Virus record (IMG/VR): IMGVR_UViG_3300020185_000014
Span: 1 to 64,000 of that record
Source: a virus
Direction: 5' to 3' (one strand)
Length of the DNA stretch: 64,000 bases
Notes under the pieces: generated by a model
What the model was told of the DNA's origin: nothing
Seen by the model: only the letters and a program-made list of their open reading frames with translations
Databases searched by the model: none
In this document: positions 3,909-20,945 of the stretch, in pieces
How the letters are laid out: each line of letters starts with the position of its first letter
Position numbering within the stretch: position 1 is the stretch's first letter
Translations under genes and position numbers: made by a program

Positions 3909-3937
3909 ATCTTACTTTTATTTTCGCTCAATGTCAA
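3909..3937 (-). promoter_or_regulatory. Sigma70-type early promoter for gene 45 operon
   Basis: Perfect -35 TTGACA (3937-3932) and -10 TAAGAT (3914-3909) are separated by exactly 17 bases, 27 bases upstream of the gp45 ATG. The -35 overlaps the last codons of the upstream zinc-motif gene. This would let the clamp and clamp loader be expressed early, independently of the upstream cassette. Confidence 0.75.
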
Positions 3938-4344
3938 GAGAAAAACTGGTCTAACAAATTTTTGTTTTGCTTTGGATGCGGTTTCTTTTTGGTTGGAGTT
4001 TTGACTATTGATAGTTCTCCAAAATCTAAAAGGTTTGTTTGCTCTTCGACGGGACGGTTTCGTTTGAGATATGCTCGCTTTGCAGATGCAATACTTCCAT
4101 TATATTGTTTATAACATGTAGCGCATAACTCTCGAAGATCGTCAGCATGCGATGTATATCCCCGTTTTACTTTAGATTTTTTATAGAAGGCTGTTATGGA
4201 AAAACGTTTACCGCATCCCCAGAGGCACAATTTTGTGTGCATTGTGTTATACCCAAACAAGGTTCTCGCATACAAACCACCTTGAGTAGTCGTCCGTGTG
4301 TGGACTCCTGGCGTTTCTTCTAACGATGTCACTTTATTAGACAT
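3934..4344 (-). CDS. Small zinc-motif protein with clamp-binding-like C-terminus
   Basis: Not assignable to a named family. The 136-aa product has two cysteine pairs, CLWGC near residue 40 and CATC near residue 75, spaced like a zinc ribbon or HNH-like knuckle and separated by a basic stretch (KKSKVKRGYTSHADD). The C-terminal third is Lys/Pro-rich and ends KNLLDQFFS, which resembles sliding-clamp binding peptides (hydrophobic pair plus terminal aromatics). A second similar stretch, TNLLDFG, lies about 30 residues earlier. The gene shares a TAATG overlap with the UDP-galactopyranose mutase gene and sits just before gp45. A clamp-recruited DNA-binding factor is plausible. Confidence 0.6.
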   Translation of the reverse strand: MSNKVTSLEETPGVHTRTTTQGGLYARTLFGYNTMHTKLCLWGCGKRFSITAFYKKSKVKRGYTSHADDLRELCATCYKQYNGSIASAKRAYLKRNRPVEEQTNLLDFGELSIVKTPTKKKPHPKQNKNLLDQFFS

Positions 4345-5360
4345 TACAATATTTCCTTTAAATATTTTTTTGATCCCGCTAATGATTGGTTAATTACTTG
4401 GTGCATATCCAGATACTGATAAGTCCCGCAACGACCGATAAAGGTCATGCGCTTGTTATCAATTTCTGTATATTTGTTATAAATCGCAGAGCTTAATCCG
4501 TCAGTAGTTTTGACAGGATAGTACCGCTCTTTCTGATTTGTTTTGTAATCACAGGGCCACTCATAGGTCAACGTTGTGAATCCTGGATTGTTTCCGTGAT
4601 TAGGAAAATTCTTCCACTCGGTGACCCTGGTCGGACCCTCCCATGTGGTGAAATTGGTAGTCGCCGTTTTAAATACATTCTTCTGGGGCAGCGTTACCGT
4701 TTGAAACTTGATTGATCTATACGGTAACTCGCCAAATATAAAATGATAATACTCGTCGATAGGCATGCTGTTAAAAGTATGCGTATATTCTTTTTCCATA
4801 TCATAAGAAAACGGTGTTTTAAGGCGAACAGAGATGTTCTCGTGATCTAAGATATTATCAATCAAAACGGTATAACCATCCTTCGGCATCTTCTGTATAG
4901 TGTCGTCGGGAAAATAATATTCATTGTAATCATCACGAACAGGAACGCGCTCTAATATTTTCGGATTTAGTTCTTCCAGAGAAATCCCCCACATTTTCTT
5001 TGTATACGGTTTAAAGAATATGTCGGCAACGTTCTCTTCTCCCACGAGCATCGATGTTTCTTTGTTTACTGGCAGAGTATAATATTCCCCATCGGTATGC
5101 AACGCTAAGACTTTATGCTTGTAATCGACCCACTCGGTATACTGAGACAACCACTTAAACACTCTTTCGTTACTGGTGTGAAAAATATGCGGTCCATATT
5201 TATGAACCCTGATATTATCTTCATTAAGATAATCAAACGCATTACCGGCGGTATGGTCCCGCGAATCAATCACGTCAACTCTTGCCCCTGCTTCAGCAAG
5301 TTCTCGAGCATAGACTGCGCCAGCAAACCCAGCGCCGACAACCAGATACTTCCTATCCAT
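4344..5360 (-). CDS. glf: UDP-galactopyranose mutase (FAD enzyme)
   Basis: Interconverts UDP-galactopyranose and UDP-galactofuranose. The 338-aa product has the FAD-binding GAGFAGAVYARELAE at the N-terminus, then the UGM hallmarks: AGNAFDY, YGPHIFHTSN, KMWG with ELNPKILERVPVR, ERYYPV and, near the end, GRCGTYQYLDMHQVI, the FAD/active-site motif. It is slightly shorter than bacterial UGMs (about 370-390 aa) but all blocks are present, so it is likely active. The start codon overlaps the end of the glycosyltransferase gene by 8 bases, and the stop overlaps the next gene, so the three are coupled. Its product would be a sugar donor for the adjacent glycosyltransferase. Confidence 0.9.
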   Translation of the reverse strand: MDRKYLVVGAGFAGAVYARELAEAGARVDVIDSRDHTAGNAFDYLNEDNIRVHKYGPHIFHTSNERVFKWLSQYTEWVDYKHKVLALHTDGEYYTLPVNKETSMLVGEENVADIFFKPYTKKMWGISLEELNPKILERVPVRDDYNEYYFPDDTIQKMPKDGYTVLIDNILDHENISVRLKTPFSYDMEKEYTHTFNSMPIDEYYHFIFGELPYRSIKFQTVTLPQKNVFKTATTNFTTWEGPTRVTEWKNFPNHGNNPGFTTLTYEWPCDYKTNQKERYYPVKTTDGLSSAIYNKYTEIDNKRMTFIGRCGTYQYLDMHQVINQSLAGSKKYLKEIL

Positions 5361-6381
5361 TCAAATAGTCCTCAACTTGTTTGATTGTTATTTGTTTATT
5401 CATAGGTTGAGATTCATAATACGCTATTTTTTGCTCGAAAGCAAGTTTTTCTAACTGACCTTCCGAAAGTTGTTCAATTTTCTTACAAGTCAAACCAATA
5501 TAAGGTTCGCCGAATATTGATGCTTCTTTATCATCGCAGATTAAAATTGACTCACAATCAGCAACTTGTTGCGGTCTCGCACGCCACCAACCAGAACCAG
5601 CATGCCAGTATCCTGCCATTAGAATACCCCATTGCTCATTGAAGGTCGTTACCATATCTTCTTCCGATAATCGAACTTGTTTTTTATTTTTAGATCCATA
5701 TTGTTTGATCTCCCACTTTGCTTCTGCGGTGATTCGGTTAAACCACTTCTCGGTCTCGGACTGAATCAATCCAGCAAAGTTAAAGATCTTTGCTTTATCG
5801 TCATCAAACAATGTTGTTCTAGGTTTGCGGTGTAGCGTGAACGGCGGCGGAAACCAAGAATGGATTTTATCGTTATCCCAATCAGAAAATAACATTTTAA
5901 AATCGCCACCCAAATGCGCAGGTAATGTGATAGGTCGATCCATGTTTGCTATCATGGTAAATGCTTTTTTGAAATCCGCTTTCCACTCTGGGCGAAGTTC
6001 TTTTTCAGCAACAACATTATTGACGTAATAATCGTTCGTGACCGAATCGACGACTTTGTCAATATTGTTTTTCCATGTATTAATGTTCTTGGGAGATTGC
6101 CAATCTTCAATAGCAAAAAGAACATCGTCGCGTTGAGCGATAGTCCAAAGCGCGCTGTAGATATGCGTGTTAAATGGAGATATGTGCATTAGAAACACAA
6201 CCACCTTATCATAAACAGATAAGTCCTCGCCGATCCTAACAGGTCTCTGTTCTACTTCATGCCCCATAGACTCAAGGCATTCGACTAGACTGAAATGGGC
6301 AGTACATAAACCGATCTGAGAAGACTTATGAAAATTCTTCGTACAAGCGGCGCGTGTGAACCCTGTGATTAATACTTTCAT
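5353..6381 (-). CDS. GT-B-like glycosyltransferase (possible DNA glycosyltransferase)
   Basis: The 342-aa product is not a close match to any family I can name. Its layout resembles T4 DNA beta-glucosyltransferase (351 aa): a Rossmann-like start (MKVLITGF), a DKVVVFLMHISPFN strand-loop, a central FNFAGLIQSE strand, and a C-terminal donor-binding part with GILMAGYW, then RPQQVADCESILICDD, resembling the 'W-E-x-M-A-x-D-A-V-x-L-I-D' stretch of BGT. Trp/Arg-rich segments (WHAGSGWWRAR) are distinctive. Expression probably starts at the promoter just upstream, and UGM follows with an 8-base overlap. Together with UGM and GalE this suggests transfer of galactose or galactofuranose. The acceptor could be modified DNA, a protein or a surface polymer. 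Confidence 0.6.
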   Translation of the reverse strand: MKVLITGFTRAACTKNFHKSSQIGLCTAHFSLVECLESMGHEVEQRPVRIGEDLSVYDKVVVFLMHISPFNTHIYSALWTIAQRDDVLFAIEDWQSPKNINTWKNNIDKVVDSVTNDYYVNNVVAEKELRPEWKADFKKAFTMIANMDRPITLPAHLGGDFKMLFSDWDNDKIHSWFPPPFTLHRKPRTTLFDDDKAKIFNFAGLIQSETEKWFNRITAEAKWEIKQYGSKNKKQVRLSEEDMVTTFNEQWGILMAGYWHAGSGWWRARPQQVADCESILICDDKEASIFGEPYIGLTCKKIEQLSEGQLEKLAFEQKIAYYESQPMNKQITIKQVEDYLNG

Positions 6382-6457: not shown

Positions 6458-7348
6458 TTATTGTTTTTGTTCTAGGATGTATTGATCCAAACACATGTCC
6501 TGGATTGTGCGCTTTAGAGTAATTCTCTCTGATAAATTAGTAACCTTACAAGAGATCGCGTCTCCTGCACGTCTAGGCGCAACCTCATAGGGCAATAGGA
6601 TGCCTGTTGCATCATAAAATGCGTTATAGACATCCCATACGGTGAAACCCTTATTAGACCCCAATTCTTCATATTCAGTATTCAAAGGTCCATTCGCGCA
6701 TGCAGACTCAATAGCATCAGCAAGATCCAAGACGTGTACATAATCTCTAACGCATGTTCCGTCTTCCGTCGGATAATCATCACCAAATATTTGTAACGTT
6801 TCCCTTCTCTTGCAAGCAACTTCTGCCATTACACGGATGAGGTGTGACGCTGGACCGAGTTGTTTGAGGTTCCCGTCTGATCCGGAAACGTTGAAGAATC
6901 TAAAGATCGTCCACTCTTTACCAAATTTATTTTTCCTAATTGCCCACTCAGCACAGGTTTTAGATAAAGCATAAGGCGAAGCGTTTTCTAAGGAAGAAGA
7001 ACTGCCCGCAAAAATAATATGTTTCGCATTAATGTGCTCGAGCACTTCCTGAGTGCCTCTGATATTGGCATCAAAATATTCAAACGGGACTTCAATCGAA
7101 GGGGCGACTAAGTTCCTTCCCGCAAGATGAACACAAACGTCAAACTCAGTTTCCATTAAATCGCGATTCGTTATTTTGCAGATATCTTCTTTATAGAAGA
7201 TGTTACAGTAATTCTCGATTTCGTTATACTCATCATAAACGCCATAAGAATCTAAACCAGTTACTTTATATCCACGAGTTCTTAATATTTTAACAACATG
7301 TGATCCGATGTAACCTGCCGCACCCGTGACTAAAACTTTTTTGCTCAT
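6458..7348 (-). CDS. galE: UDP-glucose 4-epimerase-type SDR enzyme
   Basis: Extended short-chain dehydrogenase that would interconvert UDP-glucose and UDP-galactose. The 296-aa product shows VTGAAGYIGSH (NAD binding), the catalytic YxxxK as YALSK preceded by AGSSSS, and the GalE hallmark DGTCVRDYVHVLDLADA, then RRAGD near the C-terminus. It is about 40 residues shorter than E. coli GalE (338 aa), so the substrate could be another UDP-sugar. I start at the ATG at 7348, which overlaps the upstream oxygenase stop as TGATG and places the NAD motif at residue 8. A longer reading to 7450 has a basic, unrelated extension and is rejected. Confidence 0.88.
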   Translation of the reverse strand: MSKKVLVTGAAGYIGSHVVKILRTRGYKVTGLDSYGVYDEYNEIENYCNIFYKEDICKITNRDLMETEFDVCVHLAGRNLVAPSIEVPFEYFDANIRGTQEVLEHINAKHIIFAGSSSSLENASPYALSKTCAEWAIRKNKFGKEWTIFRFFNVSGSDGNLKQLGPASHLIRVMAEVACKRRETLQIFGDDYPTEDGTCVRDYVHVLDLADAIESACANGPLNTEYEELGSNKGFTVWDVYNAFYDATGILLPYEVAPRRAGDAISCKVTNLSERITLKRTIQDMCLDQYILEQKQ

Positions 7349-8661
7349 CAGAAAAATGCCTCCAAGGTTGATGTTTGCGGGTGATACTCTTCGAGTAAGT
7401 CTTCGCCGCCGTTGGTTCTCAAGTAGTCGTACCATTCTTCGCTCTGCCACATCTTCGCAGTGACGCCATTAAACTTAGGATCAGACGAAGCGAGTCTCCT
7501 CGAAGTTACAAAATTGTATCGTTGTTGCTCATATTCCCAAGACCCCAAGTCGATCATGTTTTCTCTAAAATAACACACCAAAGAGATACGCTCCATATCC
7601 TCAACGGTTTTTCCTGCTGGGGGAATGATTTCTGTGTTACCATGGATGCCTTCGTGATTATTGATTAATAACACATCTCCTGGTCGAACATTAATCGCGA
7701 TGCGGTATTCCGGAAGAACTAGATATCCCCCCTCCCATTCTTTTTCTTTAGACACGACTGTTAAGTTTGAGAAACCTTCGGTCAAATCACCAGCGTCTCG
7801 ATGCGCTGCAGTTCTGAAGTTCTTATTAACAGTTATTGTAGTGAATGGCGTATTCTTACCGGCAACTCTAAATCTAGGGTCAATCTTATCAGCATAGGTT
7901 TCTTGGGCGGCATGCCGTGTCGGCATTAATTGAGAAAATTGCTCTGCGAGAGTCATCATAAAAGGAAAACATTTTTTATACAAATCAGGATTCTTTTCAG
8001 TGTATGACGTTGCTCGACCATATGGTATTCTTGGATACCGATCAAAGAAACCGGCGATGCCGGAATTAACAGCATTGGCATATGTCGTGTCAGAAATATA
8101 TTTCGTTTTTACATGGAGCGCATCTGCAGATGCCTCATCCGAGGGCATGGACTTCCACATCTCTACTTTATGATTGAAGAAATCCTCATAAGTGAAACCT
8201 TCGTCTGCAATTTTACTTCGCAACCAAACCATGCCTCTGGTAGATTCTACTGGATTTCTTTTATGCCTAAGTTCTATTTCTGTAATGGGATCATCGCCGA
8301 ATATGTTAATCTGATCATTAATAACACAATCAAGAATATCCCATTGTACTGCAGTAACCCAATCGCGATTGCCGAGTTTTCCTTGTTTCGGACCTGCCGC
8401 CATGCCTCTATTTTGAGTAGGTTGGGCAGCACTGACCAGACCCTCGTATGCCCAGAGTTGTTCTCGCGCCGAGAATACGTTTTTCCTGAACTTAAAGATA
8501 CATTCGCTTTCTGATAACTCGGAGTTATCTCCATCGAGCGCACCCACTTTATAAAAATCTACGTCATCTTCAATAAGAGTATCATAATGACTTTCGTCGA
8601 GATACTTACCAAGTAAGTTTGTACAATCGTGTTTGTGCGTGGCTACAATAACCTGCGTCAT
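7348..8661 (-). CDS. TET/JBP-type 2-oxoglutarate/Fe(II) dioxygenase
   Basis: TET/JBP enzymes hydroxylate the 5-methyl group of thymine or 5-methylcytosine in DNA. The 437-aa product carries the family's double-stranded beta-helix: NKNFRTAAHRDAGD gives iron ligands H287 and D289, followed by GGYLVLPEYRIAINVRPGDVL, then the distal H340 in GIHGN and R358 (ERISLVCYF) for 2-oxoglutarate. An N-terminal NRGMAAGP block, typical of the family, is at about residues 84-91. AGGAG lies 9 bases before the ATG. The gene follows gp46 by 12 bases and is coupled to galE. A protein or free-nucleotide substrate cannot be excluded, but the fold details favour DNA. Confidence 0.85.
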   Translation of the reverse strand: MTQVIVATHKHDCTNLLGKYLDESHYDTLIEDDVDFYKVGALDGDNSELSESECIFKFRKNVFSAREQLWAYEGLVSAAQPTQNRGMAAGPKQGKLGNRDWVTAVQWDILDCVINDQINIFGDDPITEIELRHKRNPVESTRGMVWLRSKIADEGFTYEDFFNHKVEMWKSMPSDEASADALHVKTKYISDTTYANAVNSGIAGFFDRYPRIPYGRATSYTEKNPDLYKKCFPFMMTLAEQFSQLMPTRHAAQETYADKIDPRFRVAGKNTPFTTITVNKNFRTAAHRDAGDLTEGFSNLTVVSKEKEWEGGYLVLPEYRIAINVRPGDVLLINNHEGIHGNTEIIPPAGKTVEDMERISLVCYFRENMIDLGSWEYEQQRYNFVTSRRLASSDPKFNGVTAKMWQSEEWYDYLRTNGGEDLLEEYHPQTSTLEAFF

Positions 8662-19172: not shown

Positions 19173-20945
19173 TTATACAGATACTTGATGACGAACAACC
19201 TTATAAGAAGGTTGTTCAGCACTTTCTGCGACAGCAGAAAGTTCTACAACAGATCCACTAATAGCAGCAGAGAATGTTGCGAGTACGCCATTAGACTTAA
19301 TCACACCAAACTCAGTAGTCATAGCAGTTGAGCTACCATCATGCAATACCAAGATCTCAGAAGTCTGGTACTTATTACCAGAAGAGACCTGAATTGTGAA
19401 TCGAGCAGAACGCCAGTCCGCGATCGCGAATGACGAAATCACCTGAGTTGCTCCTGCAGATCCAGCAGCAGGGGTAGCGCTAGTGTCAATCAAAGCGACG
19501 TCGTCAATCTTAACAGAACTGAATTGAACGTCGTCAGTTGTTGCTACTGCCTGGCCGATTGCAATTACACCAGTTGCTGGAGTATATGTTACGCCAGTAC
19601 CAGCAGAAATAGCATTTTTAGCATCAGAGTCTGCGCGCGATGCAGTATAGTACAACTTATCGCCTTCAGCGAGGTCAGTTGTTGACATAGTACCAAAGTC
19701 TGAATCAAAGCGTACTGTCTGATAGAACAACTTATCGCCTTCAGCGAGGTCAGTTGTTGACATAGTACCAAAGTCTGAGTCAAAGCGTACTGTTTGGTAG
19801 AACAACTTATCGCCTTCGGCGAGGTCGGTTGTTGACATAGTACCAAAATCGCTATCGAAGCGTACTGTTGTATAGTACAACTTATCGCCTTCGGCGAGGT
19901 CAGTCGTTGTCTTAAGGGCAAAATCGCTATTGAAGTAAGAAGTTTTGTAATACTTATTCGTCAGACCTTCGGACAAATCGTCTGATGTCTTAGTACCAAA
20001 GTCTGAATCAAAGCGTACTGTCTGATAGAACAACTTATCGCCTTCGGCGAGATCAGTTGTCGACTTATCACCAAAATCGCTATCAAAACGTACTGTTGTA
20101 TAGAACAACTTATCGCCTTCAGCAAGATCAGTCGTCGACATAGTACCAAAGTCTGAGTCGAAACGTACTGTTGTATAGAACAACTTATCGCCTTCAGCAA
20201 GATCAGTTGTCGAGTTATCACCAAAATCGCTATCAAAACGTGCTGTTGTATAGAACAACTTATCGCCTTCGGCGAGATCAGTTGTCGACATAGTACCAAA
20301 GTCTGAATCAAAACGTACTGTTGTGTAGTACAGATTAGTTGAACCTTCAGTAACATCATCAGTTGTATTGGTCAAAGAACCAAAAGTCAACGCGCCTGTT
20401 ACTTCCATAGCAGCAGACATAGTAACGTTCTGCGATGAGTCACCAGCAATAGAGATATTACCTTGACCATCTGCGACGATTAACTGATTGTCTTTTCCAA
20501 CAATCGTTGATCCGCTAGCACGACCAATAATCGTGTTTGAACTTTCGCTAGTGAGAGAAGAACCTGCTTCGTCACCGATAATTGTGTTACCAGAACCGGT
20601 GCTTAGGGAAGCAGCGCCAGACTCACCGACTACGACGTTATCTACGCCGGATGAGATTGAAGCCAATACCCCGTCACCGAGACCAGTATTAGATGAGTTT
20701 GTTAAACCGAGTAAGAATGTGTCGCTATCATTAGCGGGTGCGAAATTCTGCGAAGCAGAATCCCACTTGATGATCTGGCCATCAGTAATATTACTGATGT
20801 TAACATCAACCATATCGGCAATGCTACCAGTTCCTGCGACGGTTTCCAAACCAACATTTGAAATTTGAATCTGAGCGAGCGAATCGAATGCGAGTACGCT
20901 TCCAATTCTAAGACCGCCTAGAATTTCGAAATCTTGTTTAGCCAT
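19173..20945 (-). CDS. Repeat-rich virion fibre protein
   Basis: The 590-aa product is built mainly of nine consecutive units of about 25 residues with consensus TVRFDSDFGTMSTTDLAEG followed by DKLFY, flanked by degenerate copies. Such units form trimeric fibre shafts in many phages. Before them is a YadA-head-like stretch (NTIIGDEAG, NTIIGRASG). The C-terminal about 85 residues (RSARFTIQVSS ... LVLHDGSS ... YKVVRHQ) are shared with the neighbouring collagen-like protein. N-terminal anchor MAKQDFEILGGLRIG. AAGGA precedes the ATG. Probably a head-associated fibre given its place between 67 and 20. Confidence 0.75.
   Translation of the reverse strand: MAKQDFEILGGLRIGSVLAFDSLAQIQISNVGLETVAGTGSIADMVDVNISNITDGQIIKWDSASQNFAPANDSDTFLLGLTNSSNTGLGDGVLASISSGVDNVVVGESGAASLSTGSGNTIIGDEAGSSLTSESSNTIIGRASGSTIVGKDNQLIVADGQGNISIAGDSSQNVTMSAAMEVTGALTFGSLTNTTDDVTEGSTNLYYTTVRFDSDFGTMSTTDLAEGDKLFYTTARFDSDFGDNSTTDLAEGDKLFYTTVRFDSDFGTMSTTDLAEGDKLFYTTVRFDSDFGDKSTTDLAEGDKLFYQTVRFDSDFGTKTSDDLSEGLTNKYYKTSYFNSDFALKTTTDLAEGDKLYYTTVRFDSDFGTMSTTDLAEGDKLFYQTVRFDSDFGTMSTTDLAEGDKLFYQTVRFDSDFGTMSTTDLAEGDKLYYTASRADSDAKNAISAGTGVTYTPATGVIAIGQAVATTDDVQFSSVKIDDVALIDTSATPAAGSAGATQVISSFAIADWRSARFTIQVSSGNKYQTSEILVLHDGSSTAMTTEFGVIKSNGVLATFSAAISGSVVELSAVAESAEQPSYKVVRHQVSV
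19640..20345 (-). repeat. 75-base tandem repeats in the fibre gene
   Basis: About nine imperfect copies of a 75-base unit encode the 25-residue shaft repeats. Several units are nearly identical at the DNA level (the GACATAGTACCAAAGTCTGA stretch recurs), which points to recent unit duplication. Confidence 0.85.

Follow-up and report, generated by a model that had tools for sequence, protein, structure and literature searches.

A TET/JBP-type 2-oxoglutarate/Fe(II) oxygenase heads a tight same-strand cassette of sugar genes in a T4-like phage, and the evidence favours thymine over 5-methylcytosine (5mC) as the base on which it would act. With moderate confidence, the enzyme can be read from its sequence and context as a DNA-level thymine hydroxylase, which would produce 5-hydroxymethyluracil (5hmU) in phage DNA for subsequent galactofuranosylation, in a base-J-like manner. 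Thymine had been put forward in the preliminary description of this DNA as an alternative substrate to 5mC; this alternative gained support from the gene context, namely amino-acid:DNA transferase (ADDT) and kinase neighbours in related phages and the exchange of a hydroxymethylase for the TET, which tilts the balance to thymine.

In the proposed pathway the TET, using Fe(II), O2 and 2-oxoglutarate, would convert thymine in the phage's own DNA to 5hmU. An epimerase would form UDP-galactose from UDP-glucose, a mutase would convert UDP-galactopyranose to UDP-galactofuranose, and a 342-aa transferase would place the sugar onto the hydroxymethyl group of 5hmU. The resulting galactofuranosyl-oxymethyluracil would shield phage DNA against host nucleases; the DNA of phage DLP6, the closest isolate, is listed as restriction-enzyme resistant (PMC8228603). 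In sister phages the product of the same TET would pass to a kinase and an ADDT instead.

The analysed stretch of 64,000 bases (the window) takes up positions 1-64000 of a viral record that is 116,069 bases long and itself a genome fragment. T4-like genes are present, including those for RegA, the clamp loader, the gp45 clamp, gp46/gp47, UvsW, UvsY and gp23.

Family, fold and active site of the oxygenase

The TET gene (positions 7348-8661 of the window, minus strand) encodes a 437-aa protein with an ATG start codon, preceded by a ribosome-binding-like GAGGAG sequence directly past the stop codon of the gp46 gene. Its assignment draws on Pfam, PHROG, fold and active-site residues. Residues 211-367 match PF12851 (Tet_JBP) with 90.5 bits and an E-value of 8.7e-26, the curated cut-off being 34.9, and phrog_24024 matches the full length at 1e-158, so that the family match is far beyond chance. 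A Pfam search of the 437 aa found no second domain. A single-sequence scan for relatives of this protein in viral contigs returned none and an alignment-based scan at least 580; similarly, single-protein phmmer against PDB sequences gave chance matches only, and a profile of seven relatives reached TET2 at 3.5e-5.

The iron ligands H287, D289 and H340, which form the HxD...H triad of the TET/JBP double-stranded beta-helix, and the 2-oxoglutarate arginine R358 are all present where the preliminary description had placed them, and two alignments, one of 7 and one of 22 relatives, show no variation at any of them. The same alignments show that R85, G86 and G90 of the NRGMAAG block, which had also been singled out, are invariant. 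The earlier suggestion about protein length held in part: the 437-aa length is correct, but the N-terminal region of about 80 residues is not a free-standing domain, being conserved across the clade and included in the structural match to TET2, which starts from residue 1. The main difference between this protein and the 288-302-aa phage TETs in the alignment is found at residues ~91-190.

An AlphaFold2 model built from 22 sequences (that of the window and IMG/VR rows) had a mean pLDDT of 76.7, with values below 50 in the loop 284-291 around H287 and D289. In a Foldseek search of the PDB the model matched CcTet (6.8e-8), NgTET1 (9.6e-8), TET2 (5e-7) and CMD1 (6e-5), and the VIA-align Z-scores were 17.1 for TET2, 16.2 for CMD1, 16.1 for NgTET1 and 15.2 for CcTet, followed by ALKBH3 with 12.0. 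The leading PDB matches are all TET/JBP-clade DNA oxygenases. Non-DNA 2-oxoglutarate oxygenases, such as phytanoyl-CoA and amino-acid hydroxylases, which had been named earlier as the match that would contradict a TET/JBP assignment, were absent among the best folds from both Foldseek and VIA-align.

The fold also bears on the idea that the oxygenase acts on free nucleotides, converting dTMP or dTTP to a hydroxymethyl-dUTP that is then incorporated by the polymerase. Such a role would agree with the place of the TET in related gene sets, where it stands in the position of dUMP/dCMP hydroxymethylases, but the nearest folds are DNA-base oxygenases throughout and we know of no TET/JBP enzyme that uses free nucleotides; we regard it as very improbable.

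A profile alignment to TET2 places D292 at N1387 and R366 at H1904 of that protein, which we take to be the 5mC-contacting residues in the TET2-DNA structure. Arginine is found at the R366 position in 155 of 163 full-length sequences, and six of the other eight lack any match to the motif pattern. An arginine at the position of TET2 H1904 could prefer thymine, with its O4, to cytosine, with its amino group; this is only suggestive, the reference of the comparison being TET2 and not the 5mC-specific phage TETs.

The TET genes of the DLP6, Cr30, S-CBWM1 and HTVC112P orthologues (L002, L003, L005 and L013) are labelled '(putative) SNF2 DNA repair protein' in GenBank. By sequence and fold, these genes encode TET/JBP oxygenases.

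The sugar cassette

The TET gene is followed on the same strand by genes for a GalE-like epimerase, a putative glycosyltransferase and a UDP-galactopyranose mutase, which are its most informative neighbours and were unmentioned in the preliminary description. The GalE-like nucleotide-sugar 4-epimerase (6458-7348, minus strand, 296 aa) has galE as its best NCBIfam model, with a score of 184 bits that lies under the model cut-off of 262, and its ATG shares one base with the TET stop codon (TGATG). The putative DNA glycosyltransferase (5353-6381, minus strand, 342 aa) comes next, and its gene overlaps by 8 bases with that of the UDP-galactopyranose mutase (4344-5360, minus strand, 338 aa; GLF, PF03275, 3e-50). 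The run is closed, before the gp45 clamp gene, by a small conserved ORF of 136 aa (3934-4344, minus strand), the order of which is kept in the near relative L226; its membership in the cassette is uncertain. The order TET-epimerase-transferase-mutase recurs, with gene overlaps of a few bases, in L044 and L227, and C48C1 carries TET-transferase-mutase.

Sequence searches with the 342-aa protein gave no Pfam or PDB match, and its structural model was too poor (pLDDT 51; best PDB E-value 9e-3), several GT-B enzymes being among the insignificant matches. That it is a glycosyltransferase is suggested by a homologue in phage DSL-LC01 annotated 'glycosyltransferase' and by the location of its relatives, which adjoin UDP-galactopyranose mutase in T4-like phages of Aeromonas and Erwinia. 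The likely donor is UDP-galactofuranose.

Beyond the window, a further run of sugar genes extends over contig positions 80847-93422 and comprises an apparent UDP-sugar dehydrogenase, three LPS-type glycosyltransferase-like ORFs and two sugar-transferase-like ORFs, as recognised by eye. Another unusual element is a 590-aa ORF with DUF285 repeats (window 19173-20945, minus strand), located amid head genes, which is odd cargo for a T4-like head module.

Sugar and glycosyltransferase-like genes such as those at contig 80847-93422 need not act on DNA. The TET might modify another base (N6-methyladenine, as CcTet can, or a base in RNA), with the sugar genes devoted to the surface of the host or to the virion; in line with this, one of the closest structures is CcTet in complex with 6mA or 5mC DNA. 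Against this stands the repeated tight linkage of TETs to ADDT, kinase and TET-associated glycosyltransferase genes in unrelated phages, and we consider such a division of roles improbable.

Source of the hydroxymethylpyrimidine

The preliminary description found no methyltransferase that would make 5mC in the window, and the absence reaches much further. C5-cytosine methyltransferases (PF00145) were found in none of the 71 records with full-length TET relatives, comprising the 116-kb window contig, the complete genomes of the four isolates DLP6, C48C1, Cr30 and S-CBWM1, 50 IMG/VR relatives and 16 further records. Since many of the IMG/VR records are fragments, the complete isolates weigh most in this result. 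PF00145 is also absent from HTVC112P, P12024L and Kharcho, which carry shorter TETs. The same search does find C5-methyltransferases in phage records, for example in DSL-LC01 and L112, and the Pfam search found one in L019 as well. A search by TET-associated glycosyltransferase for TETs with neighbouring C5-methyltransferases returned mostly more members of the same short-TET clade. Of the short-TET relatives, only L112 (308-1171, plus strand; record G070) proved to have a C5-cytosine methyltransferase gene, located ~4.5 kb upstream of its TET.

The search for thymidylate-synthase-type hydroxymethylases (PF00303) likewise gave nothing in the window contig, DLP6, C48C1 and S-CBWM1, nor in any of the 42 TET relatives searched; the sole PF00303 protein of Cr30 is a canonical thymidylate synthase, which has Asn of the dUMP type. 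With neither a C5-methyltransferase nor a PF00303 hydroxymethylase found, none of the known ways of arriving at hydroxymethylpyrimidines is represented. Thymine is the sole C5-methylated pyrimidine surely present in all these phages. The ThyX gene of the window phage is located at contig 82942-83667, and the complete C48C1 genome has neither ThyX nor ThyA at threshold. DLP6 encodes a divergent ThyX-like protein (L011, W01:49878-50366; E 3.6e-10) in a 343-aa frame, longer than usual.

The main competing explanation is that the TET oxidises 5mC to 5-hydroxymethylcytosine (5hmC), which is then galactofuranosylated, the 5mC being made by a host methyltransferase or by a phage enzyme that either does not belong to PF00145 or is encoded elsewhere than on the contig. 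As far as the work of Burke et al. 2021 is described in PMC12730594, characterised phage TETs act together with C5-methyltransferases and glycosyltransferases on cytosine; in addition, the short-TET relative L112 has a C5-methyltransferase, and the fragmentary state of the window contig leaves room for a methyltransferase gene elsewhere in the genome. Host methyltransferases, however, hit few sites and differ among the Caulobacter, Stenotrophomonas and Synechococcus hosts, and the full-length clade was devoid of C5-methyltransferases in every record searched. TETs at 50-60% identity, moreover, adjoin genes of thymidine hypermodification. With the evidence from the transferase, considered below, also counted in its favour, oxidation of 5mC is judged unlikely, though it is the strongest of the competitors.

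The transferase points partly in the direction of cytosine. Its distant relatives (24-30% identity) occur in the TET-less phages Aes012, FBB1, Rgz1 and DSL-LC01, which have an extra PF00303 protein with the dCMP-type Asp, and the transferase/mutase pair is found in T4-like phages that encode a dCMP-type hydroxymethylase. The transferase family may therefore prefer hydroxymethylcytosine, which counts against thymine: if acceptor specificity is conserved, the TET product would be 5hmC. The TET clade outweighs the transferase relatives because it is much closer, at 50-62% identity, and because a source of 5mC is missing. T4 beta-glucosyltransferase glucosylates 5hmU in some DNA contexts (PMC4111573), which makes switches of acceptor plausible.

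Two probable outlets of one TET, and comparison with known systems

Oxidation of thymine, the preferred reading, agrees with the genes found beside TETs of the clade. Within ~7 kb of the TET, ADDT (PF18724) is present at 40 of 89 loci and a P-loop kinase (PF18751) also at 40, with both at 37. Among the 78 A1-selected loci, 37 were of the amine type, having the TET beside ADDT and usually a P-loop kinase, and 11 of the sugar type. Thymidine hypermodification proceeds through a 5hmdU DNA kinase followed by transferases (PMC6449724), and ADDT homologues are widespread in Ackermannviridae. Two points count against thymine: no ADDT or kinase was found on the window contig, and ADDT may also act on hydroxymethylcytosine-derived DNA.

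The distribution of hydroxymethylases among ADDT phages is consistent with a replacement. Twenty of 26 ADDT genomes have a TET without a divergent hydroxymethylase, and the remaining six (Det7, phiDP23.1, K452, 1.255, VPALA and 3M) have no TET and carry a divergent PF00303 protein with the dUMP-type Asn, the Asn or Asp at this position marking the use of dUMP or dCMP (PMC8670742). In the thymidylate-synthase alignment the row Aes012_a, which is in a wrong reading frame, was disregarded. The exclusivity is significant (Fisher p 4e-6) with relatedness ignored. In IMG/VR genomes picked by ADDT alone, TET was present in 18 of 18 and PF00303 in none of the 18, and the ADDT-bearing Mycobacterium phage VioletZ combines a divergent TET with a lack of PF00303. 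The two enzymes never occurring together in the 26 genomes, the TET appears to stand in the place of the dUMP hydroxymethylase.

ADDT and sugar genes were never found together near a TET at 167 loci, of which ~80 had been selected by ADDT. On the TET tree the sugar and amine cassettes interleave with eight changes: L044, which has the cassette of the window, sits inside a group of ADDT phages, and DLP6, with sugar genes, groups with L077 and L079, which have ADDT. Since the outlets have been swapped repeatedly, a single TET product probably feeds both. The broader scenario, which we hold as tentative, with chances a little short of even, is that a clade of T4-like phages swapped the nucleotide hydroxymethylase for a thymine-hydroxylating TET/JBP enzyme, the product of which would become galactofuranosyl-oxymethyluracil in the window phage and enter the kinase/ADDT route in its sisters.

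Four known systems offer comparison. JBP makes base J from thymine (PMC12730594), and the window enzyme shares the TET/JBP superfamily with JBP1 and JBP2 of kinetoplastids, as well as, by proposal, the conversion of thymine to 5hmU in DNA before glycosylation; this likeness is one of superfamily and proposed reaction. JBP1 is marked by a J-binding domain and JBP2 by a SWI/SNF-type domain. The sugar of base J is glucose, whereas the phage has a putative galactofuranose donor pathway and an unrelated transferase, and its activity on thymine is a prediction. The phage systems of TET, C5-methyltransferase and glycosyltransferase (Burke et al. 2021, PNAS) resemble the window in combining a phage TET with glycosyltransferase partners; they start from phage-made 5mC, whereas in the window clade the defining methyltransferase was sought and not found, and for this reason the protein is classed as a TET/JBP enzyme and not as a member of a 5mC-TET system. 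A further difference may be the arginine at the TET2 H1904 position, set here against TET2 and not against residues of the Burke enzymes.

ViI/M6-like thymidine hypermodification employs a dUMP hydroxymethylase, a 5hmdU DNA kinase and ADDT. In sister phages of the window, genes for the kinase and ADDT lie next to that of the TET, and both routes would pass through a hydroxymethylpyrimidine in DNA; the window clade differs in having a TET instead of the dUMP hydroxymethylase, and the window phage in having sugar genes in place of kinase and ADDT. Finally, T4-like phages of Aeromonas and Erwinia (phage 25, Aes012 and FBB1) have a homologous transferase and mutase side by side, as in the window. 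Aes012 and FBB1 have no TET match and a dCMP-type hydroxymethylase, whereas in the window the pair follows the TET and epimerase; such a hydroxymethylase as acceptor source is lacking on the window contig and in the complete C48C1 genome, both without PF00303.

Iyer et al. in 2013 reportedly predicted that hydroxymethylpyrimidines made by TET/JBP enzymes start further modification in phages. Relative to that general idea, this particular cassette and the replacement of the hydroxymethylase by a TET are worked out here. To our knowledge, thymine-directed TET/JBP activity is firmly established only for kinetoplastid base J, and 5mC is the substrate of those phage TETs that are known from experiment; no thymine-acting phage TET was found in the literature searched, in which most subscription journals were out of reach. 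If the prediction is true, this would be, as far as we know, the first thymine-specific TET/JBP enzyme outside kinetoplastids. A thymine-acting phage clade would then be a plausible source for JBP, would offer a new enzymatic means to write 5hmU into DNA, and would constitute a modular system in which one oxygenase leads to either sugar or amine chemistry. Orthologues are present in three culturable phages with named hosts (DLP6, Cr30 and S-CBWM1), which makes the action on thymine directly testable.

Several further genes were observed around the TETs of sister phages. Glutamine-amidotransferase-like and amidoligase-like genes often flank the TET/ADDT/kinase set (L078:11302-12859, L039:5523-7099, L042:6217-7780), and the presence of an amidotransferase near 41 of 89 TETs hints at further decoration of a peptide or amide type. 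An inositol-1-phosphate synthase gene accompanies those for TET and ADDT in Cr30 (L003:17293-18474) and in L068 (L068:7916-9055), which suggests an inositol-linked modification. The P-loop kinases beside the TET (L039:11335-11883 and similar) match Pfam Ploopntkinase3, and the label 'terminase small subunit' that they receive from phrog_800 looks wrong.
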